Below, one piece after another: positions 7,471 through 34,812 of a stretch of DNA of 34,812 bases (within the stretch, counting starts at the first letter, position 1; every line of letters begins with the position of its first letter). This stretch comes from Candidatus Heimdallarchaeota archaeon LC_3 (GTDB lineage: Archaea > Asgardarchaeota > Heimdallarchaeia > Hodarchaeales > LC-3): NCBI GenBank assembly GCA_001940645.1, contig MDVS01000087.1, forward strand, positions 1-34,812. Reading direction: 5' to 3'. Below the pieces are notes generated by a model that saw only the letters and a program-made list of their open reading frames with translations, was not told the origin of the DNA and did not search any database. Position numbers and translations under genes: made by a program.

Positions 7471-8189
7471 ATAAATCTCCTTCTTAACAATTTATTAATT
7501 TTCTAGGCGACATTAAAAAGGTCTTAATTTCTGTTTTTCTATTAATTTCAAACTTGAATAATGAATCTAAAATTGATTTTCTTTGTTAGGCAACTTTGTT
7601 CTAAAGAATTATTATTTTTCAAATCCTAATTTAAAATATAATTTCTCTTATTTTAATATTTAGTTAATAACTAAAGTACTAAATAACAAGGTATAATTTT
7701 AAACTTAGACCACAGAAAAATGAAAGTAAGTTATTAGATAAAATGACTGACTTTCTTAAAAATAAAAAAAATAATTGAAATTTTATAATTTAAGTTCCTT
7801 ACTAGTCATCGAATTACATTTAAATAAGAAAATAATTAATAAATGTTGTGTCATTCGAATTTTTTTTGCAAATTTATAGATAATATCCAAATTTTCTCTC
7901 AATAGTTATTTAATATCGAAAAATATCAAATTTATTAAACATGGTCTATTTATAATTGCTTACTACAATACTGTTGAAGTCATTTATAATTAATACTGTG
8001 ATGTGATAAAATAATTAATTTAATTTATTAATTCAAATTCATTAAGTACAGTTAATTTTAAGAACAATTTTGTTCTTAAAATTAACTTAATGATATTAAA
8101 TTTCTTTAATATGTTCTAAAACTGTAAAATAATATCAAATTTCTATAATCTCGTTTTTTTCTAAAAAAATTTTGTCTAGAGGAAATCTC
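7471..8189. other. 0.7-kb AT-rich divergent intergenic region
   Basis: This spacer lies between the divergent Cdc48 and DHH genes and should hold both promoters. I see no credible coding frame; the longest small frames, such as one starting at 7561, are about 20 codons. It contains the perfect inverted repeat at 8051-8086 and several copies of an 'atatcaaattt'-like word (near 7923, 8093 as 'atattaaattt', and 8133). Such copies could be regulator sites or chance in very AT-rich DNA. Confidence 0.6.
8051..8086. repeat. Perfect 17-bp inverted repeat with 2-nt spacer
   Basis: The left arm gttaattttaagaacaa (8051-8067) is followed by 'tt' and its exact reverse complement (8070-8086). Outer flanks continue the symmetry: 'cattaa' at 8040-8045 and 'ttaatg' at 8087-8092, with a 5-nt bulge on the left. 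It lies about 105 nt upstream of the DHH gene start. It is not followed by a T-run, so a terminator is less likely than a protein-binding site or a hairpin in a 5' leader. Confidence 0.85.
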
Positions 8190-10364
8190 ATGAAGGAAAG
8201 ATGCAAATACTGCGAAGGTTCTGGTAAAAAAATCGGTTTAGATGTATGTCCTACTTGTAATGGATATGGAGTCAAAACTTTTCAACTTGATGCCAAAACG
8301 CAGGTGTATAAGGGTAAAGTCAAAGGGCCAGGTCAAAGTTGTAAAACTTGTGAAGGTACTGGAAAAATCAGAGTTACAACTGACTGTGATTGTGACGATG
8401 GTTGGCGTTATTTATGTGAATTATGCAAAAATAATACAGATTCAAATAATTTATTGTGTAGAAAATGTTTCCAAGACCCAGTTATTTATGAACTTAGATA
8501 TCCCTTTGATAAGTCAGTTCTTGAAAGAAGAGCTGTTCTTGGTAATGTGGCAAATATTCAGGGTTCTACCGCTATAATATCAGTAGCTGATATTCAAGGT
8601 AGATTGAAACTTGCACAAGTTCCAAAAGGAACATTTGTTAAATCTGGAGATAAAATTCCTGTAAGTTTATCTTCTACAAGCTCGAATGGAAGAATTCAAA
8701 ACGATTTTGTTTATGTTAGAGCAAGTAATTACAAAATACAGACAATTCGTTCAAAAAATATACCATTAAGTCCATCGTTTGAAAAAATAATTAAAAACGA
8801 AGTAAATGAGGGTTTTATTATACGTGCGAATGCTGAAATTATCAGTATAAAGCAAACTTCAGGACCGACTCTTTTTCGATTAGTAGACGAATTTGGAAAC
8901 AATGTTGTTGGTGTAGGTTTTATTGAAGCTGGACAGAGAGCTTTTCCTCATATTCACGAAGGGGTAATAGTTGAGGTAGCTGGTCACTATAATATTCATC
9001 AAGGACAAACGCAAATAGACCTAAGAGAAATATTAGCATTATCTGATGAAATGAGTGAACAATTTAAGATTAAAGTTGGTAAACGTCTTCAAGAAAAAAC
9101 CAAAGCACCAGATATTCCGTTTTCAATTAAGTCTGAGATCTTTGATACTCTTAGACCTCAATTTCAAGCTGTTGCTGAAAGAATCAGACAATCTGTTTTT
9201 ACTGGACAAAATATAATAATAAAATATTACCATCCAAGCGTTGACGCAACATGTGCAAGTATTGTATTAGAATTGGCAATATTAGATTTATTAAGATCAA
9301 AATCAAGTCTATCTAAAACAAGTTTAAGGAAATATCCAGAAAGAATGAACTACTACGAGTTTGGAGATGCTTCACGAGATATTGTTTCATTTTTAGAAGA
9401 ACAATCCAGAGCTGGGGGTTCAACTGAACTGCCTCTATTAATATTAATTGACCTTGGATCATCTGAAGAGAATAACTTAACATTTGATTTGCTTTCAACT
9501 TATGATGTGGAAACTGTAATATTAGATAATCACCTAATAGGAGAGACTATGAAAGATAAGAAATATTTCATCAATCCTTTACTTGCCTCCAATTCTGATG
9601 AATACAATATTTCAGTAGGGATGTTAGCCTTCGAATTAGGTCGTATAATTTCTTCCAATCCAGAATCATATACTAAAGGTTTACAACATATACCAGTTAT
9701 TTCTGGTCTCGCAGAAAAAGTTTCCCAGATAAATTCTCCTGATTCTGAAATAGGCCAGTATTTATCCTTTGTCAAAGATTCTTACACCCTTGAAAAACTA
9801 GAAGAAATGATGTTAGCAATTGATTATCAAACTTTCTTTTTAAGAACCTATACAGATGGTGGGATATTACTAGCGGAATTATTAGGTTTAGGTGTTTCAC
9901 CAACAGTAGTAGATCATTTAGTTCCTAGATTAGCAAAAGAAGCAAAATTTGCTTCTGAATCCGCAATCAAACCTACTCTAGTTCATGCTGACACATCCAA
10001 TCTTAATACTGCAGAAGGCGGATCTGAAATCATGGTTACAAAAATTGATTTCGATCTCACTCCAAGAACAGGTTATCCTAATCCATCTAAAACTACTGAG
10101 ATAATTCATGAACAATATGTTATAGAAAACCAAGGTAAAATAGTAATAACACTCGGAATAGGACATGATTATGTTCTGATCCACTCAAGTGGTGTTAAAT
10201 TTAATCTTGATTCAATAATTGAGAATATTAAGGTAAAAATTCCATCCGCAGGTGTAATTCAGGGTAGCGGACATGGTAGAATCGGATTTGTTAGGTTCTT
10301 CGCACCTTTCAAGAAGGATGTTTTGGAGCATATGCTCTCCGAGTTTGCTGTTTTATCTAATTGA
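8190..10364 (+). CDS. Archaeal RecJ-like DHH-family protein with DnaJ-type zinc finger and OB fold
   Basis: 724 aa from the ATG at 8190, which has 'gagg' 7 nt upstream; a TTG 18 nt earlier is possible but worse. Residues 4-94 carry CxxCxGxG-type repeats as in the DnaJ zinc finger ('CKYCEGSG', 'CPTCNGYG', 'CKTCEGTG', 'CDCDDG'), then further Cys pairs. An S1/TRAM-like segment (about 105-175) and an OB fold (about 205-285) follow, then a DHH/DHHA1-like core from about 335. This matches the archaeal group of RecJ-like proteins with a DnaJ zinc finger. The catalytic core looks altered: the HxDADG motif reads 'HPSVDA' (348-353) and DHH reads 'DNH' (446-448), while DHHA1 'GSGHG' is kept. It may bind nucleic acid, like Cdc45, more than cut it. 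Confidence 0.85.
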   Translation: MKERCKYCEGSGKKIGLDVCPTCNGYGVKTFQLDAKTQVYKGKVKGPGQSCKTCEGTGKIRVTTDCDCDDGWRYLCELCKNNTDSNNLLCRKCFQDPVIYELRYPFDKSVLERRAVLGNVANIQGSTAIISVADIQGRLKLAQVPKGTFVKSGDKIPVSLSSTSSNGRIQNDFVYVRASNYKIQTIRSKNIPLSPSFEKIIKNEVNEGFIIRANAEIISIKQTSGPTLFRLVDEFGNNVVGVGFIEAGQRAFPHIHEGVIVEVAGHYNIHQGQTQIDLREILALSDEMSEQFKIKVGKRLQEKTKAPDIPFSIKSEIFDTLRPQFQAVAERIRQSVFTGQNIIIKYYHPSVDATCASIVLELAILDLLRSKSSLSKTSLRKYPERMNYYEFGDASRDIVSFLEEQSRAGGSTELPLLILIDLGSSEENNLTFDLLSTYDVETVILDNHLIGETMKDKKYFINPLLASNSDEYNISVGMLAFELGRIISSNPESYTKGLQHIPVISGLAEKVSQINSPDSEIGQYLSFVKDSYTLEKLEEMMLAIDYQTFFLRTYTDGGILLAELLGLGVSPTVVDHLVPRLAKEAKFASESAIKPTLVHADTSNLNTAEGGSEIMVTKIDFDLTPRTGYPNPSKTTEIIHEQYVIENQGKIVITLGIGHDYVLIHSSGVKFNLDSIIENIKVKIPSAGVIQGSGHGRIGFVRFFAPFKKDVLEHMLSEFAVLSN

Positions 10365-10662: not shown

Positions 10663-11646
10663 ATGTTAAATAAAAAAACTTCTAACAATAAAATCAGTTC
10701 AGAAAAAAAGTTTTCTGAATCAATATTTAGAGAAGAAGAATTAAGGAGTATAATTAAAGATCTGAGCAATCTGAAATTTCAAAAAAAGGCAATTATTTCC
10801 CTTGGAGAGATCATTGAGGATATTGGATATTCTATTGTTAAAATAGCATTAAGTTTAAATCCTGAAAATGAGCTTACAAGTGATTTGGTAGTTAGAGCTG
10901 CTAAAAGACATGCTTCCCTTTCAGTACCCATGATACATTATCTGTGGATAATAAATTCTAATGGGGCTGCTCTTTTTTCAAAAAGTTATTCAGGTTTACA
11001 GTTTCCTGATACTATATTTGCGGGTTTGTTACTAGGAATAGTTAATATGATCCAAGAAGTTTCTGGAAGGGATTTAGAGCGATTAGTCATAGGAGACTTA
11101 TCAATATACATCCAAGAAGTGCCACCAATAGCTTGTGCTGTTATAAGTGATGATTCAAAGGGAATTCCATCCTTAGTAAAAGAATTAGGCAAAGAATTCT
11201 TAAGAATTTATGGTCATCGAATTTCAGAGCCAGCTGTTGATGTTAATGTATTCACCACATTTGAAAAACACGCAAGAACTATTATTCGTAATTGGGGAAT
11301 TGTCAAACTACCTACTGATGCAGCAGGGGACGCTGTCGCGAAATTATTAGATCCAGAAATGATTAGACATGGTGTAATATCAGCTGCTCAAAGAAAAGAT
11401 CTGAAAAATGCTATGAAAGAGTTAAAAGAGATACCGATATTTCACGAAGATGAAAACAATACCTCTTTTGAAAAATTAATAGACAGTAGCTTTTCACAGG
11501 AGAGAATGCGTCCAAATTTTGTTGATAGTGATAAATCAGGCAAAGATTTGATAAAAGAGATTTTTTCAGCCGTCAATAAACTAAAAGCTTCCTCTGAACA
11601 TGATGAAGAGACCGATGACGAATTTTCCAATGAAGACTCAAACTAA
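10663..11646 (+). CDS. Longin/roadblock-like fold protein, Asgard type
   Basis: 327 aa. An N-terminal helical part (residues 20-85) is followed by a profilin-like domain at about 90-187: a hairpin 'IHYLWIINSNGAALFSKSYSG', a long helix 'FAGLLLGIVNMIQEVSG', strands 'LERLVIGDLSIYIQEV' and 'PIACAVISDD', and a final helix 'VKELGKEFLRIYG'. This order and the words 'I..SNG..LFS..Y' and 'FAG.L..I..M..E' recall the longin/roadblock proteins that are abundant in Asgard genomes and act with small GTPases in eukaryotes. The C-terminal 140 residues are helical, ending in a very acidic tail ('DEETDDEFSNEDSN'). There is no membrane segment. Its partner is unknown; no small GTPase is in the window. Confidence 0.6.
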   Translation: MLNKKTSNNKISSEKKFSESIFREEELRSIIKDLSNLKFQKKAIISLGEIIEDIGYSIVKIALSLNPENELTSDLVVRAAKRHASLSVPMIHYLWIINSNGAALFSKSYSGLQFPDTIFAGLLLGIVNMIQEVSGRDLERLVIGDLSIYIQEVPPIACAVISDDSKGIPSLVKELGKEFLRIYGHRISEPAVDVNVFTTFEKHARTIIRNWGIVKLPTDAAGDAVAKLLDPEMIRHGVISAAQRKDLKNAMKELKEIPIFHEDENNTSFEKLIDSSFSQERMRPNFVDSDKSGKDLIKEIFSAVNKLKASSEHDEETDDEFSNEDSN

Positions 11647-11702: not shown

Positions 11703-12734
11703 ATGACATATTATAATATAGATTTTTCGTTACTAGACAAAACTATAAAGAATTTTCGAATAAAACCTCAAAAAATATTACTACAGTTTCCAGACGGATT
11801 ATTAGGTTCTCCTCTTCAAAGTGTTGTCAATTTTCTTATTGAAAGAGATATTGAACCTGTTTTATCAGCTGATCCGTCTTATGGTGCATGTGATTTGCCT
11901 TTAAATCAAGCAAAAATGATGGGTATTGATCATATATTCCATTTTGGACATTCAACATTTGCATTTCCACCTCCTTCAGAATTTAAAGGAAAAATAAGTT
12001 ATTTTCCAGTGAAAGTTAATATTGAATTTTCCTGGAATAAAATACTGGAAGAGATCATAATATTGGGTTGGAAAACAGTAGGGTTATTAACCACAATTCA
12101 ACATGTTGATAAATATAAATTTGAAAACGAAACTATAAATAACAGCAATATTACTTTTGTTCAACATAAAGAAGGACAAATATTAGGATGCAATCAGGAT
12201 AGAGCCACTAAAATTGCTTCTTCTGTAGATGGATTTTTAGTTATAGCAGGAGGAGATTTTCATGCCTCACCTATTGTTGTTGCGACCAATCGGCCAACTT
12301 TAAGGTATGATCCATTTAATGAAACATTTAAATTATTCGACGAGCAATTTAGAAATAAATATTTATCTAAGAGGTATGCTTTGATTGAAAAAGCAAAAAA
12401 AGCAACAAATTGGGGTGTAATTCTCTCTGCAAAATCAGGTCAATTCCCTAAAGATAAGGGTAGTAGAATTCTTAACATGCTTAAAAGAAAAGGATTAACA
12501 GCTATTCCTTTTATCATGCATAATGTGAATCTTCCCCATTTATCAAACTTTGAAACGATAGATGCATGGATAATAACTCTGTGTCCCCGCTTAGCAACTG
12601 ATGATTATATAAGAATTAAAAAACCAATTTTAACTTCAAGAGAATTAGCGGTTGTCTTGGGTGATTTAAGTTGGGATCAATTTATCACTCCTAAAACAGG
12701 AGAGCATTTACTAACAATAGAAGAATTTGAATAA
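11703..12734 (+). CDS. dph2: Diphthamide biosynthesis enzyme Dph2
   Basis: 343 aa. Archaeal Dph2 is a homodimeric, non-classical radical-SAM enzyme that binds a [4Fe-4S] cluster with three cysteines, one per domain, and transfers the 3-amino-3-carboxypropyl group of SAM to a His of elongation factor 2. All three are here: C63 in 'PSYGACD', C163 in 'ILGCNQ' and C294 in 'TLCPRLATDD'. 'LLQFPDGLL' at the start and 'ADPSYGACD' are family signatures. It follows the longin-like gene by 56 nt on the same strand. Its end faces the DENN-like gene with only 7 nt between them. Confidence 0.95.
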   Translation: MTYYNIDFSLLDKTIKNFRIKPQKILLQFPDGLLGSPLQSVVNFLIERDIEPVLSADPSYGACDLPLNQAKMMGIDHIFHFGHSTFAFPPPSEFKGKISYFPVKVNIEFSWNKILEEIIILGWKTVGLLTTIQHVDKYKFENETINNSNITFVQHKEGQILGCNQDRATKIASSVDGFLVIAGGDFHASPIVVATNRPTLRYDPFNETFKLFDEQFRNKYLSKRYALIEKAKKATNWGVILSAKSGQFPKDKGSRILNMLKRKGLTAIPFIMHNVNLPHLSNFETIDAWIITLCPRLATDDYIRIKKPILTSRELAVVLGDLSWDQFITPKTGEHLLTIEEFE

Positions 12735-12741
12735 TAACTAG

Positions 12742-13761
12742 CTATAGTTGATTGAAAATACTCTGAAAACTTGGAAACTGAATTTTTGCCATTGATAATA
12801 TGAAACTTTTGTTTTCTTCATCAAGATTAGACAAATCTTCTATTATTTTATCAATATTAACAGGAACTTTTGAGGAATATTCTACAATTTGATCAATCAT
12901 TTTTTTATAGATATTAAATTTCGAAATAATATATCGTTCTGCTGATGAAGAATCTTTAGGACGAATAACCTTTTCAATTATTGTTTGTAAACTTTTATTT
13001 GGAATTCCACCCTCCACTTTACCTTTTTCTATATTAATAACGGTAACACCAATATTCAAAAAAAAGTCAGTAAATTTAACATCTTGACAACCTACTAAAT
13101 CGAAACCTGTGGGATCTATTGGTGTGGTAGTTTCCATAAGTTTAATCATTGTTTTCCAAGGTAAAAATAATTCCAAGGTACCCATCATTTGTTCTATTAA
13201 TACCCTATGTCCAATTATTAAAACTGGTTGTTCCAATAATAAGGCTGTTATTGCTTGATCTAAATCTTTCTTAATAGTCTTTAATAGCCAGCTAATATTA
13301 CTTTTTTGCATTTTTGTTCTAACAGCTTGTTTTAACAAATCTGAACGATAATCAGAAGGTTCTTTAAAAAGTTTTTGAAGCAATAAAGTATTTGATCCAG
13401 ATAAAGTTGGTTTTCCATCATAGACATAGTTTGATAATCGATATGCAAACAAGTGAGCCCTTCTTTTTAATACAGGGATTTGTTTGTACAAATTCATTTG
13501 TTGGTCTTGGTCGACTACATAAGTGATAGAAGCAATCACAGGCACTTGTCTACCATAAACTTTAAACAGAAAAATAAATCCTATTTTTCCTAAATCAGGA
13601 AAAGGAAGAACAGCATCTTGAATATTAAAATCAGTTTTTGACATACTAACTGAAAGCTGAGCTTTAACAGCAATTTTTTTTGCAAAACTTTCTTCTGAGG
13701 TAGTAAATGCTACTAATGGTCCTTGATTAGGGTCAATTATTGAAAATGTCAAATCTGCCAT
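12742..13761 (-). CDS. Candidate longin-DENN-like protein
   Basis: 339 aa from the ATG at 13761; a TTG seven codons earlier is possible. The N-terminal third (residues 3-110) has a longin-like plan: 'LTFSIIDPNQGPLVAFTT' with the Gly-Pro turn seen in the Nprl2, FLCN and AVL9 type of longin, helix 'FAKKIAVKAQL', strands 'VLPFPDLGKIGFIFLFKVYG' and 'PVIASITYVV', and helix 'RRAHLFAYRLS'. The second part (about 178-255) has 'PVLIIGHRVLIEQMMGTLELFLPW', then 'FDLVGCQDVKFTDFF' and 'GVTVINIEKGKVEGG', which follow the DENN core order (strand, helix ending in a Pro-containing turn, 'F.vG...', then a strand with an acidic residue and G-K-V). DENN proteins regulate Rab or Rag GTPases. The match is by eye only. 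Confidence 0.5.
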   Translation of the reverse strand: MADLTFSIIDPNQGPLVAFTTSEESFAKKIAVKAQLSVSMSKTDFNIQDAVLPFPDLGKIGFIFLFKVYGRQVPVIASITYVVDQDQQMNLYKQIPVLKRRAHLFAYRLSNYVYDGKPTLSGSNTLLLQKLFKEPSDYRSDLLKQAVRTKMQKSNISWLLKTIKKDLDQAITALLLEQPVLIIGHRVLIEQMMGTLELFLPWKTMIKLMETTTPIDPTGFDLVGCQDVKFTDFFLNIGVTVINIEKGKVEGGIPNKSLQTIIEKVIRPKDSSSAERYIISKFNIYKKMIDQIVEYSSKVPVNIDKIIEDLSNLDEENKSFILSMAKIQFPSFQSIFNQL

Positions 13762-13963
13762 ATTTACACTATAACCATTCAAAATTTAATGATTTTAAAG
13801 AAGGGTAAAAATTTTTTTGCTAGAATTTGAGATTCATAACAATTAGATTTGTTATTTTCTTTGAAATTACTCCTTAATATATTTTATTGCATTTATATTA
13901 AAAATTTCACTAAATTTATAGTGATTAATTTTCCTAAAATACTGTTAATTAAGTGCAGGTTTG

Positions 13964-14575: not shown

Positions 14576-15634
14576 ATGTTAAAAGAAGGAAAATTGCCTA
14601 TTCCAGAATTAACTGAGTTAATATCATTTCAGGGTGCGAAAATATCAGGGACAATTATATTACCAGGGATCGGATTAGATGCTTCTGCAATAAATCCAGA
14701 AATTGCTAATACTTATTGTAAAAAATTTTATGATTCAGAAGATGAATGCTTTTTAATTATTAAATCTGATCCTATAACTTTTTCAACAAGTAATCCCGGT
14801 AAATTTAGCATAATCATTAATGCTAATGATATTTCTTGTTTAGGAGGCGTTCCTTATGGATGTACTATTACTTTATTAATACCTCCTGGTAATTCATTTG
14901 ATATCGTTAAAAAAATACAATGTGAAATTCATGATACATGCAAAAATATCGGTATAAGTATATTGGGAGGACATACAGAAATTACATCTTCAGTAAACCA
15001 AATTATTATATCTTTATCTATGATTGGATTTGTTCCTCATAATTTTTTACCGTCAAGAGTAATTTCAGAGGGAAATGTGCTGATTCTATGTGGTTTTATA
15101 GGTAATGAAGGAACAGTAATATTATCACAAGAAATTAACAATAAATTTGATAAAATTATCTTTGAATTGAAAGAAATAAATAGACTCGAAGAATTGTTAT
15201 ATGTCGGGGATACTGCTTTAAAACTTAATAAAGTTTTAAAACCTCTTTTAATACATGATCCTACCGAAGGTGGTGTATTAGGAGCAATTTATGAATTATT
15301 TCGAGGTTTAGAGAATGAAATTGGAGTTAACATTTTTAAAAATTCCTTAGATAGGCATATCCATCCGTTTACTAGAAAAATTTCAGATTTATTAGATATT
15401 GATCCTTTAAGATTAATATCAAGTGGAGCTTTATTACTTATAATATCATCAGATCAAATGGACAATTTTAAAACAATTATTAAAGATTTCTTTATACCTA
15501 TTTCTGTGATAGGAGAGGTCAAAGATAAAAAGATAATGTTTGATGATAATACCCCTATTAAGCCTCCTGAATCGGATGAACTAATACAAGGCTTTAAGAA
15601 TTTGGAAAAAATTATTGAAAAAAATAATTTATAA
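14576..15634 (+). CDS. PurM/HypE-superfamily (AIR synthase-related) ATP-binding protein
   Basis: 352 aa. The N-terminal domain has 'LPGIGLDASAI', 'LIIKSDPITFST' and 'IIINANDISCLGGVPYG', which match the dimer/ATP-binding half of PurM, HypE, SelD and ThiL proteins (D.v.ai..a.P). 'ISILGGHTEIT' is the typical GGHTE motif. The C-terminal half holds 'LLIHDPTEGGVLGAIYEL' (DPTRGG in HypE) and 'SSGALLLII'. The end, 'EKIIEKNNL', lacks the PRIC-type cysteine tail that carries the carbamoyl/cyano group in true HypE, so a hydrogenase role is not supported. A 'aggga' site lies 7 nt before the ATG. The gene is followed 31 nt later by the EutA-like gene, probably as one transcript. Confidence 0.8.
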   Translation: MLKEGKLPIPELTELISFQGAKISGTIILPGIGLDASAINPEIANTYCKKFYDSEDECFLIIKSDPITFSTSNPGKFSIIINANDISCLGGVPYGCTITLLIPPGNSFDIVKKIQCEIHDTCKNIGISILGGHTEITSSVNQIIISLSMIGFVPHNFLPSRVISEGNVLILCGFIGNEGTVILSQEINNKFDKIIFELKEINRLEELLYVGDTALKLNKVLKPLLIHDPTEGGVLGAIYELFRGLENEIGVNIFKNSLDRHIHPFTRKISDLLDIDPLRLISSGALLLIISSDQMDNFKTIIKDFFIPISVIGEVKDKKIMFDDNTPIKPPESDELIQGFKNLEKIIEKNNL

Positions 15635-15665
15635 TACTTAATAATAAAACTGGTTTTTGATTACT

Positions 15666-17117
15666 ATGACAGGGAAAATGACCAGCAAAGATATAGTATC
15701 TGTTGGTATCGATATTGGAACATCAACCACACACATGGTTTTCTCAAAACTAACATTGAAAGAAGATCCTCTATCAAGAACACGGAAATTTATAATTTCA
15801 AAAAGAGAAATTTTGTACAGATCACCAATACACTTTACTCCATTAAAGGATTTTCAAACTATAGATGTTAAAAAATTAGAATTAATACTTAATAATGAAT
15901 ACAGAAATTCGGGTATTAATATTGACAATGTTGATACGGGAGCAGTGATTATCACTGGAGAAACTGCTAGAAAAGAAAATGCTGATGCAATCCTTAACTT
16001 AATGTCAGAAAATGCAGGAAAATTTGTAGCTGCAGCAGCAGGACCAAATTTTGAGTCAGTTTTATCATGTCATGGAGCAGGTATAACAGATTATTCTTTG
16101 ATTAATAATAAAACTATTTTACACACAGATATAGGTGGAGGAACTTCAAATATAGCATTAGCTAAAGAAGGAACAATTTTAACAACTGCATGTATTAATA
16201 TTGGAGGGAGATTAATAACTTTTGATAGTAATGGAATAATAAGTAAGATCGAAAATGCAGCTAATATTACAGCTAATAATTTAGGAATTTCATTAGAATT
16301 AGGTCAAAAATTTGAAAAAAATGTAATTAATAAAATTTGTGACAAATTAGCTGATTGTTTATTAGAAATATTATTTAGCACTTCTCCATATACTCAGCTA
16401 ACTCAAGATTTATTAATGACTAACCCATTATTTGGGAATTCAACTTATTTATCTTCTTTAGAGGAAATTTCATTTTCTGGAGGAGTTGCTGAGTTCATTT
16501 ATAATATAAGCAAAAATGATAATTACCAAGATATAGGGAAAGATTTGGCTAAATCCATAATTAACAAATTATCATCTCATGATATAAAGTTGCATTCTCC
16601 TAATGAAAAAATTCGTGCAACTGTAATTGGAGCTGGACAATATTCAATGGAGGTATCAGGTTCAACAACTTTTATCAGTCCTACATCACAATTTCCATTA
16701 AAAAATCTCCCTGTAATCTCTCCTTACATAGATCGATCACGTTTTTCACAAGAGCATATTGTTGATGCAATAAATGATGCTTACAATAGAATGGATACGA
16801 TAGAAGGATCTTTTATTGTTGCATTATCTTTTAAAAATCCTGTTGGCATTGTTTACAATAAAATCAGAGATTTTGTTCAAGGGATTGAAAGAGCCCTACC
16901 TCAAACACTGGAAAAAAAATTGCCAATAATTCTTTTGTTTGATAGTGATATTGGAAAAAGTATTGGTAATATTCTTAAGAGAGAAACTAGAATTGAATCT
17001 GATATAATATCAATTGATGAAATTGAGGTAAGAGAAGGCGACTTTCTTGACATAGGAGAACCGATTATCGCAAACCAAGTTGTCCCAGTAATAGTAAAAT
17101 CTTTAGTTTTTATTTGA
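15666..17117 (+). CDS. Stand-alone EutA-like ATPase (ethanolamine ammonia-lyase reactivating factor family)
   Basis: 483 aa from the ATG at 15666; a TTG at 15657 or an ATG at 15678 are alternatives. It has the ASKHA (actin/Hsp70) ATP site: phosphate-1 loop 'VGIDIGTSTTHMVFSKL', phosphate-2 'HTDIGGGTSNIALAKEG' and the adenosine loop 'SFSGGVAEFIY'. 'VIITGETARKENAD' and 'AAAGPNFESVLSCHGAG' are characteristic of EutA, which frees damaged cobalamin from ethanolamine ammonia-lyase using ATP. No eutB, eutC or other ethanolamine gene is in the window. It sits 31 nt after a PurM/HypE-like protein, so the pair may service a different radical or cobalamin enzyme. A hairpin plus T-run about 200 nt downstream may end the unit. 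Confidence 0.85.
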   Translation: MTGKMTSKDIVSVGIDIGTSTTHMVFSKLTLKEDPLSRTRKFIISKREILYRSPIHFTPLKDFQTIDVKKLELILNNEYRNSGINIDNVDTGAVIITGETARKENADAILNLMSENAGKFVAAAAGPNFESVLSCHGAGITDYSLINNKTILHTDIGGGTSNIALAKEGTILTTACINIGGRLITFDSNGIISKIENAANITANNLGISLELGQKFEKNVINKICDKLADCLLEILFSTSPYTQLTQDLLMTNPLFGNSTYLSSLEEISFSGGVAEFIYNISKNDNYQDIGKDLAKSIINKLSSHDIKLHSPNEKIRATVIGAGQYSMEVSGSTTFISPTSQFPLKNLPVISPYIDRSRFSQEHIVDAINDAYNRMDTIEGSFIVALSFKNPVGIVYNKIRDFVQGIERALPQTLEKKLPIILLFDSDIGKSIGNILKRETRIESDIISIDEIEVREGDFLDIGEPIIANQVVPVIVKSLVFI

Positions 17118-18161: not shown

Positions 18162-18278
18162 TTTTTAATATTAAATAGTAGAAAATCTATAAGTATTGAT
18201 TAAATTTCTCTTATACAGTCTATACGTATTTTGAAATTTATTTTTATATTGAACTCTAAAATCAAGGTTGAAATAAAT

Positions 18279-19622
18279 ATGCCCGAACCAGAAACCAAAC
18301 CTCAAAAACCAGTAAGTAAATCTTCAAGGATTTCAGGTTTTTTTAAGCTTTCAAATGAAGAAAGAATGCAGAAAGTTAAAGAATTTGCCGATTTAGAAGA
18401 TTCAGATATTGAATTATTAAAAGAATCTTTGAATATCTTAGATAAAGAAAAAACATATTTTATTGAAAATGTTATAGGTGCAATGCATCTTCCAATAGGT
18501 ATTGCAACTAGCTTTAAGGTGAATGGAAAGGAATATTTAGTTCCTATGGCGCTTGAAGAAGCTTCTGTTGTAGGAGCCGCTTCTAAATCAGCAAGAGATT
18601 CCTTACGGCATGGAGGGTTTTTTGCTTCAAACACCGGTCCTATAATGATTGGACAGATGCAATGTGTTAACGTATCAGATCCTTTTGGAGCTAAAATGAG
18701 AATATTAGAAAATAAAGACCAAATTATAAAAGTAGCAAATGAACAGGATCCAATTTTGGTTAGTTTTGGTGGTGGATGTAATGATGTTCAGGTAAGAGTT
18801 ATTGATTCTCTTACAGGACCGATGGTTATAACTGAATTAATCGTTAATTGTGGTGATGCTATGGGAGCAAATGCAGTTAACACGATGGCAGAGGCTTGTG
18901 CACCTTTAATAGAAAAATATACAGGTGGTAGGGTATTCTTAAGAATAATTACTAATCTTGCTGATAAAAGAATTGTTCGCGTTCGGGCAGTATTTGATAA
19001 AAGGAACTTGAAAACAGATACAATGTCTGGTGATGAAGTAGTCGATGGGATATTGGAAGCATATGCATTTGCTGAAGCAGATCCTCATCGAGCTGCAACG
19101 CATAATAAAGGCATTATGAATGCCATTAGTGCAATAACTCTAGCTACTGCTAACGATTGGAGAGCAATAGAAGCAGGCGCTCATTCATATGCAGCTCGGA
19201 CTGGGGTATATACAAGTCTAACCACTTATGAAAAGACTTCTTATGGAGATATAGTTGCCACAATTGAACTTCCACTAGCGCTGGGGTTAGTCGGAGGAGC
19301 AACAAGAATCCATCCAATAGCAAAGATAGTTGTTAAGATATTAGGTGTAAAAACAGCAGTAGAATTGGCTGAGGTTGTTGCAGCTGTTGGGCTAGCTCAA
19401 AATTTTGGGGCAATGCGTGCGTTAGCAACTACTGGTATTCAATCTGGTCATATGAAATTGCATGCGAGGAACATGGCTGTTGATGTTATTCGACAAGATA
19501 ATGGTGATCTATCTTTAACAAATAAAATTGTTGACCAAATAACTTCAGAAAAGGGAAGAGTTACCATGGATCGTGTAAAAGCAGTTTATGAGAAATTGAA
19601 GAATAAAAATGAGGATTCGTAA
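18279..19622 (+). CDS. hmgA: 3-hydroxy-3-methylglutaryl-CoA reductase, class II
   Basis: 447 aa from the ATG at 18279; in-frame TTG codons upstream (18231) add a non-conserved stretch. It reduces HMG-CoA to mevalonate for archaeal isoprenoid lipids. Class II signatures are clear: 'ENVIGAMHLPIGIAT', 'LVPMALEEASVVGAAS' (catalytic Glu around 93), 'DAMGANAVNTMAE' (193-205), K277 in 'THNKGIMNAI', D293 in 'NDWRAIEAGAH' and the catalytic His H395 in 'LHARNMA'. The N-terminal 'SSRISGFFKLSNEERM' is also the class II start. There is no membrane domain. Most archaea use the class I enzyme; class II occurs in Archaeoglobus, Thermoplasmatales and some Asgard genomes, so cofactor preference may differ. Confidence 0.96.
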   Translation: MPEPETKPQKPVSKSSRISGFFKLSNEERMQKVKEFADLEDSDIELLKESLNILDKEKTYFIENVIGAMHLPIGIATSFKVNGKEYLVPMALEEASVVGAASKSARDSLRHGGFFASNTGPIMIGQMQCVNVSDPFGAKMRILENKDQIIKVANEQDPILVSFGGGCNDVQVRVIDSLTGPMVITELIVNCGDAMGANAVNTMAEACAPLIEKYTGGRVFLRIITNLADKRIVRVRAVFDKRNLKTDTMSGDEVVDGILEAYAFAEADPHRAATHNKGIMNAISAITLATANDWRAIEAGAHSYAARTGVYTSLTTYEKTSYGDIVATIELPLALGLVGGATRIHPIAKIVVKILGVKTAVELAEVVAAVGLAQNFGAMRALATTGIQSGHMKLHARNMAVDVIRQDNGDLSLTNKIVDQITSEKGRVTMDRVKAVYEKLKNKNEDS

Positions 19623-24618: not shown

Positions 24619-25947
24619 ATGACGAATTACCAAGATTATTTTCCTCTTATTCTTCTTTTATCTTGGGATGAGAAAACTGGACCCGTTTTTCTTGACTCTT
24701 ATCCTCTTTTAAAACAAGATGAAGGGATTAAACTCGGTATACAAATATTCATGATAGCATCTTCCATATTTGGAACTGATGATTATTCTAAAGAAGTTGT
24801 AGATGTTCCTATTGCAAATTTAGGTTTTAGGGCTAGAATCTGGACTAATTATAAAGATGATGGCAATGTAAGAGGAGGTAAACTTCCTTTTATGCTAGCT
24901 GTGACATATTCTAATCCTAAATATAAAACTATTTTATCAAATGGTGATGATATATTTAGTGAGGTTTTAAATCATTATTGTTCGGAATCGGAATCTAAAA
25001 TTAATTTATTTGTTTTAAGAGAGTACATGTTAGAAAATGAATTGCTGCATTTTTCAACTTTGGAAGAATTTTATCAAATCATATCTTCATTAGCGACTTC
25101 CTCATATTTTGGATTAGCAGCGGGAACAATAATTAGTGCTCCTATTGTTGATACAGTAAATTTAGATGAGTATTTTTCTATACTTCCATCAACTATACCA
25201 CAAGGAGTCGTTTCTCAAGTTTTAATAAAGGAATTACAAGAATATTGGTATGTTTACTGGATTGGTCCGTTTACTTTTATGTTTCAACCACCAATTCATG
25301 ATATGAGTATTTTTCAAATGTTTATTAAAGGATTACATGGTTCTGTTGAAAAACTATGGAATTTAATAAGAAAAGATCCAAATTCAAAAGTAGACATGGT
25401 AAATATACTTACGAAAGTAACTTTAAATCCTGAACTTATATTTCAGTTATATCAACAGTCTCTTTTGACAGCAAGTCATAAATTATCCGGCAAGGAATTA
25501 ACCACTATTGACAGATTTCAGAACTCAGATGTATTTTTTTATATTCAATCTCAAGCTCAAAGATTGACCAAAAATAATTTTCAAGCAAAAAAAGTGCCAG
25601 AATTGCTTGACTCATACAAAAAATTAATTTTAACTCCTTATTTTGAGGGATTTTTGATAGTTTTTGGATTTTTTCTTGGAAAGGAATTATTTTCTGCCGA
25701 AAGAGAAGATAATATGCAAAAATTTAAATTTAAACTAGAAGAAGTGATAAGAAAAATCTATACTAATAATTCAAAATGGAAAATACATACTAATAAGAGG
25801 ACCAAATTTGAAATAAAGGAATGTCCATTTTGTAAATTTAGTAAAAAATGTAATTTTGTTAGGGGGATTCTCTTGTCTGTGTTTGGAAAGGATATATTAG
25901 AAATCGAATATAAAAATGAATCAATAAAATTCCTATATTTAAGATAA
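24619..25947 (+). CDS. Longin-like protein with Cys-rich, V4R-like C-terminus
   Basis: 442 aa, cytoplasmic. It opens with 'YFPLILLLSWDEKTGPVFLDSYP', a strand, a Gly-Pro turn and a second strand as in longin domains, then helix 'LGIQIFMIASSIFG' and strands 'DVPIANLGFRARIWTNYKDD' and 'GGKLPFMLAVTY' (to about residue 95). A long helical middle (200-400) follows. The end, 'EIKECPFCKFSKKCNFVRGILLSVFG', has three cysteines in a CPFC...C pattern plus a small helix, like the Cys-rich final part of V4R/Bet3-fold domains. Both folds occur in Asgard trafficking-like proteins. The gene has a clear 'aaaaggg' ribosome-binding site. Both domain calls are from pattern only, the second weaker than the first. 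Confidence 0.5.
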   Translation: MTNYQDYFPLILLLSWDEKTGPVFLDSYPLLKQDEGIKLGIQIFMIASSIFGTDDYSKEVVDVPIANLGFRARIWTNYKDDGNVRGGKLPFMLAVTYSNPKYKTILSNGDDIFSEVLNHYCSESESKINLFVLREYMLENELLHFSTLEEFYQIISSLATSSYFGLAAGTIISAPIVDTVNLDEYFSILPSTIPQGVVSQVLIKELQEYWYVYWIGPFTFMFQPPIHDMSIFQMFIKGLHGSVEKLWNLIRKDPNSKVDMVNILTKVTLNPELIFQLYQQSLLTASHKLSGKELTTIDRFQNSDVFFYIQSQAQRLTKNNFQAKKVPELLDSYKKLILTPYFEGFLIVFGFFLGKELFSAEREDNMQKFKFKLEEVIRKIYTNNSKWKIHTNKRTKFEIKECPFCKFSKKCNFVRGILLSVFGKDILEIEYKNESIKFLYLR

Positions 25948-26684: not shown

Positions 26685-27140
26685 ATGCAGGTATTAATTT
26701 CTAAAAATTGTTTTCAAGATCTAATGCAATTTACATTTTCTCCAAGAGAAATTTTAGTGAATTTAGAAGGAAATTTTGATAGAAATATTTTTTATTTAAC
26801 TAAACTCGAAACTCTCTTGATCGGAGAGAATGAATTTATCCCAAGACAACTAATTAACGAGACTATATTAAAAACCTTAAAGGTTTCATCAATTATCGGA
26901 TTTTATCATACTCACCCAAATACAGAATCAAAAGGTGACTCTAAATTAAGTGGTTCGGATATTAATTTATTCAATGAAATTTATTCTTATTGGAATACCA
27001 CAATAAAAAAAGACTTTCCTTTGCTATTAGGTGTTGGATCAACAACTTCCAATAATATAGGTGTTCTTTACGACATCAAGTTCTATATATTAAATAAAAT
27101 AGGACACCCTCAAGAATTGATATCTCACATCGTGTCATAA
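26685..27140 (+). CDS. JAMM/MPN-domain metallo-isopeptidase-like protein
   Basis: 151 aa, essentially one MPN domain. The zinc motif is complete: H75-T-H77-P in 'IIGFYHTHPNTESK', then S89-G-S-D92 in 'KLSGSDINLFNEI', which parallels 'HSHPG...LSGVD' of Rpn11 but with four more residues in the loop. The catalytic Glu is probably E22 in 'PREILVNLEG' or E28. Family members cleave isopeptide or Cys-linked bonds of ubiquitin or ubiquitin-like proteins (Rpn11, archaeal JAMM1/HvJAMM1 on SAMPs); bacterial relatives act on small sulfur carriers. No ubiquitin-like gene is in the window. The ATG at 26685 is preceded by a short AT-rich leader. Confidence 0.85.
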   Translation: MQVLISKNCFQDLMQFTFSPREILVNLEGNFDRNIFYLTKLETLLIGENEFIPRQLINETILKTLKVSSIIGFYHTHPNTESKGDSKLSGSDINLFNEIYSYWNTTIKKDFPLLLGVGSTTSNNIGVLYDIKFYILNKIGHPQELISHIVS

Positions 27141-34188: not shown

Positions 34189-34812
34189 ATGACTAAAAAA
34201 CCTAAACTAAAAAGTATGTTCATGATAAGTTTAGTAGTTCTATTGATAATTTTTGTTCAATTAAACATAACATCGACATTTGCTGAAACGTCGAACGTTA
34301 ATTCAGTTGAACAAATTGGATCTGGCTCTCCCCCATTAATAGTGGAAAAAGAAGTGATTAATAATATAATAGAGCCTGGACAATCAATCACCGTAAAAAT
34401 TACACTTAAAAATCTTAATAATAATCCAGTATATGACGTTACATTATCTGAAACCTTATTGCAATATGCTTTTGAGTATCGAGGACTAAATTCTCAAAAA
34501 ATAACATTTAATTCTATTGGAGGCAAGGAAACTAGGACAATTTATTATATCATCGATGTATTGATTCCTCAGGAAGGAAATCTCACTCTAGACGCTAGCA
34601 TCGTATCTTATTTTTTTGAACAGGAGGGAGATACGAGAATAGAATATTCATCTTATTCTCAAGAAATAAAATTAAGATTTGTTCAGGATATAATTGAAGA
34701 AAATGAAAATCAAAAAAATTTTGATTACGTTTTTCTTGCAGTTCTTTTAATAATGTATTCAGCAGTTATTCTAGTACAATCAATTTTTACCAGGTTGATT
34801 AAAAGAAACTAG
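34189..34812 (+). CDS. Secreted-side beta-sandwich membrane protein, TRAP-beta (SSR2)-like
   Basis: 207 aa, complete; its stop is the last codon of the window. It has a signal peptide (about 6-32, cleavage possible after 'TFA'), an extracytoplasmic domain (48-165), one C-terminal membrane helix (180-200) and a basic tail 'RLIKRN'. The domain begins 'IIEPGQSITVKITLKNLNNNPVYDVTLSE', as in DUF11/CARDB-like folds, and continues 'ETRTIYYIIDVLIPQEGNLTLDASIVSYFFEQEG'. This is the plan and word order of eukaryotic TRAP-beta ('[23 protein letters not shown]'), a subunit of the ER translocon-associated complex. By eye the domain is nearer to TRAP-beta than to generic S-layer repeats, but a generic adhesin-like domain is not excluded. 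Confidence 0.6.
   Translation: MTKKPKLKSMFMISLVVLLIIFVQLNITSTFAETSNVNSVEQIGSGSPPLIVEKEVINNIIEPGQSITVKITLKNLNNNPVYDVTLSETLLQYAFEYRGLNSQKITFNSIGGKETRTIYYIIDVLIPQEGNLTLDASIVSYFFEQEGDTRIEYSSYSQEIKLRFVQDIIEENENQKNFDYVFLAVLLIMYSAVILVQSIFTRLIKRN

Follow-up and report, generated by a model that had tools for sequence, protein, structure and literature searches.

A predicted longin-DENN-dDENN protein of the FLCN/C9orf72 neighbourhood in a Heimdallarchaeota genome

Was the DENN machinery that regulates small GTPases born inside the eukaryotic cell? DENN modules activate Rab GTPases, and those of the FLCN/C9orf72 branch have Rag and Arf GTPases as their targets. FLCN/C9orf72-like proteins have so far been described in eukaryotes, and an archaeal member would mean that this machinery arose earlier than the eukaryotic cell or outside it. 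The question is raised by a minus-strand gene at 12742..13761 of a 34,812-nucleotide stretch (contig MDVS01000087.1, hereafter the window) from Candidatus Heimdallarchaeota archaeon LC_3, for which the original prediction, made from the letters alone, had proposed a longin domain followed by a DENN core. Our best explanation, with a probability of roughly 0.8, is that this gene encodes an archaeal member of the longin-DENN-dDENN superfamily, lying in the neighbourhood of FLCN, C9orf72 and SMCR8, for which we infer a role as small-GTPase regulator.

The relevant passages of Zhang et al. 2012 (PMC3521125) define the DENN module by three parts: a longin domain, a three-layer alpha/beta DENN part built on a five-stranded sheet, and a d-DENN region made up entirely of helices. 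The helices of a d-DENN are arranged as two hairpins. The same three parts were predicted in the 339-residue protein (P0001), namely an N-terminal longin, a five-stranded alpha/beta DENN domain and an all-helical C-terminus with helices at residues 271-296, 303-311, 315-328 and 330-338, and the fold of all three carries high confidence in the model. Using Foldseek, FLCN was the best match of both models, that of P0001 (3.8e-7) and that of a relative, P0009 (4.8e-11), and C9orf72 was matched over the whole chain (4.0e-7 and 2.5e-9, respectively). The structural alignment of P0001 with 3v42_B extends to residue 331, and the viral structure library gave no match at E <= 0.001. The longin-DENN fold read from the raw sequence was thus right as far as the predicted structure can support it, for the N-terminal longin as for the DENN core of the second half, and the comparison with FLCN and C9orf72 that had been proposed as a check came out on its side. 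The features of the gene are as follows.

12742..13761, minus strand: longin-DENN protein gene, 339 amino acids (aa; P0001), ATG at 13761; an in-frame upstream TTG at 13782 adds 7 aa
13417..13761, minus strand: predicted N-terminal longin (u-DENN) domain, residues 1-115
13717..13734, minus strand: D10-P-x-x-G14-P15 turn, D10-P-N-Q-G14-P15 in P0001
13594..13617, minus strand: DAVLPFPD strand, residues 49-56
13300..13416, minus strand: inter-domain segment with helices, residues 116-154
12964..13299, minus strand: predicted DENN alpha/beta domain, residues 155-266, with strands at 180-183, 207-211, 222-225, 240-243 and 248-250
13090..13101, minus strand: D221-x-x-G224 strand-turn of the DENN core
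12748..12951, minus strand: predicted C-terminal all-helical d-DENN-like region, residues 271-338, four helices

The protein belongs to a conserved family. Six relatives were recovered in one search, at 86, 64, 63, 41, 38 and 27% identity over 91-98% of P0001; a profile search raised the number to 33, and a second round to 39 in all, a few of them fragments. Counting residues over all 40 proteins, with gaps set aside, the motifs pointed out earlier, including the Gly-Pro turn, proved to be family-wide: in the turn, the aspartate is found in 36 of 36, the glycine in 37 of 37 and the proline in 35 of 37 members with a residue there, and D221 and G224 are each kept in 37 of 38. The DAVLPFPD strand is the strongest conserved block, K29, K33 and Q35 of the first longin helix never vary (39/39), and K59 is nearly invariant (38/39).

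Profiles built on known families pointed in the same direction as the models. C9orf72-like (PF15019) gave weak matches in 21 of 34 members (best 1.3e-4), P0001 not among them, and Folliculin_C in 6 of 34 (best 4.8e-4) as well as in two of three further divergent relatives. These two families had the lowest best E-values among the 25 listed of 37 families, the next standing at about 4e-3 to 5e-3, and where the matched stretches are listed, C9orf72-like falls on the longin half and Folliculin_C on the DENN half. Four members (P0009, P0014, P0015 and P0037) bear a precomputed Pfam label, PF27109.1, which our Pfam scan of these four proteins did not report; part of the family may therefore already be catalogued under that accession.

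Several results weigh against this reading. Alone, P0001 returned only noise against Pfam (SesA, PRANC, PSF3_N), with no longin or DENN family, and only noise against PDB sequences; no member reached the curated cut-off of 27 bits among the scores listed, of which the best was 20.2 (Folliculin_C) and which did not include that of the best C9orf72-like match. The family profile, searched against PDB sequences at E up to 10, gave ten matches (E 0.11-7.8), none of them longin-DENN and none a FLCN, C9orf72 or DENN chain. Two alignment subsets, A3 (32 of 34 proteins) and A4 (31 of 40), were defined. In hhalign comparisons with single human FLCN, C9orf72 and NPRL2, five of six fell inside the range of 60 shuffles, FLCN against A4 beat the best shuffle by only 0.2, and reversed NPRL2 scored above NPRL2 itself. 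TM-scores over whole chains were low, at 0.28-0.37 of the query among the top ten, with large root-mean-square deviations, so that the two halves are placed differently; in the model of the second member, domain placement was uncertain (predicted TM-score 0.56). Finally, the window revealed no small GTPase. A proof of eukaryotic homology by sequence only failed, in both the PDB profile search and the hhalign shuffles. Sequence divergence within the longin-DENN superfamily is described as extreme in the passages of PMC3521125 concerned. With sequence comparisons unconvincing, we base homology on the predicted structure, on two weak independent profiles and on the matching domain order.

Several histories could account for such a protein. 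Convergence, in which a longin was independently fused to an unrelated alpha/beta domain resembling DENN, would fit a sequence signal lying below curated thresholds and the failed pairwise comparisons, but the longin and DENN halves each have their counterpart in the same eukaryotic proteins, with the order preserved, both in structural comparison and through two Pfam profiles, and we regard it as very improbable. A transfer, by which the gene entered Heimdallarchaeia from an early or proto-eukaryote and would be silent on an archaeal root of the DENN module, appears unlikely, if much less so than convergence. It would agree with the extensive gene transfer between proto-eukaryotes and Heimdallarchaeia proposed in passages of PMC12395588 and with a narrow distribution: in a collection of 84,980 species genomes, two scans with the most conserved peptide patterns gave 16 and 36 matches and no confirmed relative, and a pattern scan of viral contigs gave 22 matches and again no confirmed relative, negatives that hold at the sensitivity of these patterns, since P0036, P0037 and P0040 were seen by eye to lack both patterns of the first scan, and members like them would escape it. 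Against it, all seven organism-labelled proteins among the 40 are Asgard (three Hodarchaeales and one each of Thorarchaeota, Odinarchaeota, Heimdallarchaeota and Promethearchaeota), the archaeal family is deep, with long inner branches between groups in a tree flagged for possible long-branch effects, and hardly any similarity in sequence to a eukaryotic family can be detected. A further history, to which we give somewhat less than an even chance, is that the complete module was assembled in Heimdallarchaeia before eukaryotes, as paired paralogues forming FLCN-FNIP- or C9orf72-SMCR8-like heterodimers on archaeal Arf/Rab/Rag-like GTPases. If true, it would overturn the published view, found in passages of PMC3521125, that longin and DENN seem to have been fused in the stem lineage of eukaryotes.

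The paralogues emerge from the subgroups of the family: one containing the window's own protein (group W, P0001-P0006), group A (P0007-P0016) and group B (P0017-P0034). In a tree of 38 of the 40 proteins (P0038 and P0039 being too short), groups A and W each formed one side of a branch in 200 of 200 bootstrap trees, and group B did not. In four cases the longest contigs of an A and a B member are identical in size (34456, 12910, 14301 and 5864 bases), and the two proteins of a pair share 47-51% identity. Judging from these identical sizes, A and B members apparently lie on the same contigs, which suggests pairs of co-located paralogues, as in FLCN-FNIP and C9orf72-SMCR8. Such A/B paralogues would probably heterodimerise like FLCN-FNIP2. 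No A/B-like pair was found for group W in the tables of relatives; there the protein probably pairs with itself or works with a partner that is not linked to it.

How might such proteins act on a GTPase? R164, which we take to be the arginine finger of FLCN, sits in the loop between strands four and five. With the equivalence of this loop set by sequence and secondary structure, not by coordinates, any arginine is present there in 4 of 39 members (P0001, P0030, P0036 and P0037); that of P0001 is R71, a position with arginine in 1 of 39, and P0002, at 86% identity to P0001, has none in the loop. The only column of the longin half with an arginine majority is column 93, and it holds either Arg or Lys (20 R, 18 K). 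A catalytic arginine in the longin domain, as in the FLCN/SMCR8-type finger, is not conserved across the archaeal family. In the C9orf72-SMCR8-ARF1 structure, as presented in passages of PMC8213707, the GTPase switch regions rest against the paired longin helices, Arg147 of SMCR8 reaches into the active site, and W33 and D34 of C9orf72 lie at the ARF1 interface, where W33G/D34K mutants were tested. Aligning the Gly-Pro pairs puts D10 on C9orf72 D34, with G14-P15 in register with G38-P39; the structural alignments start one residue apart, placing D10 on either D34 or W33.

Against this background we propose that two longin domains would pair side by side, and that an Arf/Rab/Rag-like GTPase would have its switch regions cradled by the paired first helices and the D10-P-x-x-G-P turn, in the way that ARF1 is held by C9orf72-SMCR8, the DENN part serving as dimer scaffold and second contact. 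An arginine-finger GTPase-activating protein (GAP) like FLCN, SMCR8 or NPRL2, putting a longin arginine into the GTPase active site, would have in its favour that FLCN and C9orf72-SMCR8, the nearest relatives by structure, form GAP complexes (passages of PMC8213707), that four members carry an arginine in the loop of FLCN R164, and that K59 could by sequence register lie at NPRL2 R78; the rarity of the loop arginine and the Arg-or-Lys nature of column 93 nevertheless make it a distinctly improbable function. Since the family as a whole keeps no arginine finger, exchange (guanine nucleotide exchange factor, GEF) or GTPase-holding platform activity would be likelier, and the family is more likely to resemble the non-finger GTPase-holding side, that of C9orf72, or an exchange factor, though P0001 itself, with its R71, may still be of the finger type. 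It is also doubtful, though less so than the finger GAP, that the longin-DENN unit is a platform without catalysis, serving, in the manner of the longins of SNAREs and adaptors, only to recruit or tether other proteins or membranes: the matches of the longin half include Ykt6, Sec22b, sedlin and adaptor subunits, and no catalytic residue is evident, but passages of PMC3521125 describe the longin-DENN-dDENN architecture as a GTPase regulator.

The full open reading frame (ORF) spans 12742-13782 on the minus strand (346 aa from its TTG start), and the ATG at 13761 is the start common to the closest relatives of P0001. The coordinates first assigned to the gene agree with this ATG version, and the strings quoted for it (VLIIGHRVLIEQMMGTLELFLPW, FDLVGCQDVKFTDFF and GVTVINIEKGKVEGG) are all present in the minus-strand ORF. 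A chance ORF was rejected on the existence of conserved relatives, and eukaryotic contamination on the prokaryote-type gene neighbours and on organism-labelled homologues that all come from Asgard metagenome-assembled genomes. The 814 bp 5' of the gene contain no ORF of at least 80 aa. No tRNA and no Rfam family match were found in the window, and a scan for regulatory sites gave promoter-like sites at chance level (12 against 12.2 expected) and a single terminator-like site, where 0.7 would be expected. The Pfam comparison covered 30 of the window's 39 other ORFs of at least 80 aa; the nearest neighbour, a context marker outside the longin-DENN system, is listed below.

11703..12734, plus strand: Dph2-like diphthamide synthesis gene (PF01866, 3.2e-63), tail-to-tail and 7 bp from the longin-DENN gene

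Elsewhere in the window, all on the plus strand where stated, a 442-aa protein (24619-25947, +) begins with LLLSWDEKTGPVFLDSYP, which resembles the first hairpin of a longin with a similar D-x-x-x-G-P turn; it has no Pfam family at E <= 0.01 and is possibly another longin platform protein, its candidacy as a second longin-DENN protein having been rejected for want of a match to the longin-DENN family profile. Another product (10663-11646, +, 327 aa) holds a stretch, IHYLWIINSNGAALFSKSY, that looks roadblock/longin-like by eye, with no Pfam or PDB sequence match. The other genes include a small JAMM/JAB-like protein (26685-27140, +) with an H-x-H-P motif followed by S-x-S-D-like residues and weak JAB matches (0.14 and 0.22); near the window edge, a product that matches TRAP-beta (translocon-associated protein) with a score exceeding the curated cut-off (34189-34812, +, 9.4e-9); an EutA-like gene (15657-17117, +, 2.3e-142) that adjoins an AIR-synthase-like gene (14576-15634, +), with an HMG-CoA reductase gene in the same region (18231-19622); and a 730-aa protein (8172-10364, +) in which a DnaJ-type zinc-binding region is joined to a DHH-type phosphoesterase domain, each on a weak Pfam match.

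Literature joining Asgard or other archaea with DENN, C9orf72, folliculin or NPRL2 contained no archaeal DENN module among the matches listed, bioRxiv and most subscription journals lying outside the scope of the search, and the word DENN is absent from the Asgard papers PMC10933270, PMC10307638, PMC12993045, PMC12395588 and PMC12872458. A preprint may already describe one, and a structure-based Asgard survey exists in that form. Asgard longin, roadblock and TRAPPC3-like proteins are already known (passages of PMC10933270), and these three are the only candidates for Asgard GTPase regulators named in the passages of these sources, where small GTPases are said to make up as much as 2% of Asgard genes (PMC10307638). 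With all three DENN parts in 339 compact residues, a protein from in or near the group proposed as sister to eukaryotes would offer material for in vitro tests of the ancestral GTPase-regulator reaction.

Among known systems, the classical DENN proteins (DENND1A/1B, the DENND1 proteins being Rab35 GEFs, and DENND10) differ from the archaeal protein, whose longin is best matched by those of the FLCN/Lst4 and Asgard type and whose family lacks uDENN and cDENN among the Pfam matches listed. For NPRL2/NPRL3 (GATOR1), passages of PMC3521125 describe a DENN region in Npr2/Npr3 that is greatly shortened or missing altogether. The Asgard longin and roadblock-longin proteins, such as the Lokiarchaeal 8yqg, belong to a literature (PMC10933270) that covers Asgard GTPases, roadblock and longin proteins without using the word DENN. 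FLCN, which with FNIP2 is the RagC GAP subunit, likewise runs from a longin through a DENN domain to a helical C-terminus, and Folliculin_C is the second-best Pfam match of the archaeal family; unlike FLCN, the family has no conserved arginine in the R164 loop, and P0001 lacks the long acidic insert between domains, is shorter (339 against 579 residues) and has its halves placed differently relative to each other. C9orf72, the partner of SMCR8, is also longer (481 residues), P0001 itself has no C9orf72-like Pfam match, and no SMCR8- or WDR41-like partner was identified for the archaeal protein; yet it is matched over the whole chain by structure and weakly by Pfam in 21 of 34 members, it shares the same Gly-Pro turn preceded by an aspartate, and it too leaves the arginine finger to its partner.
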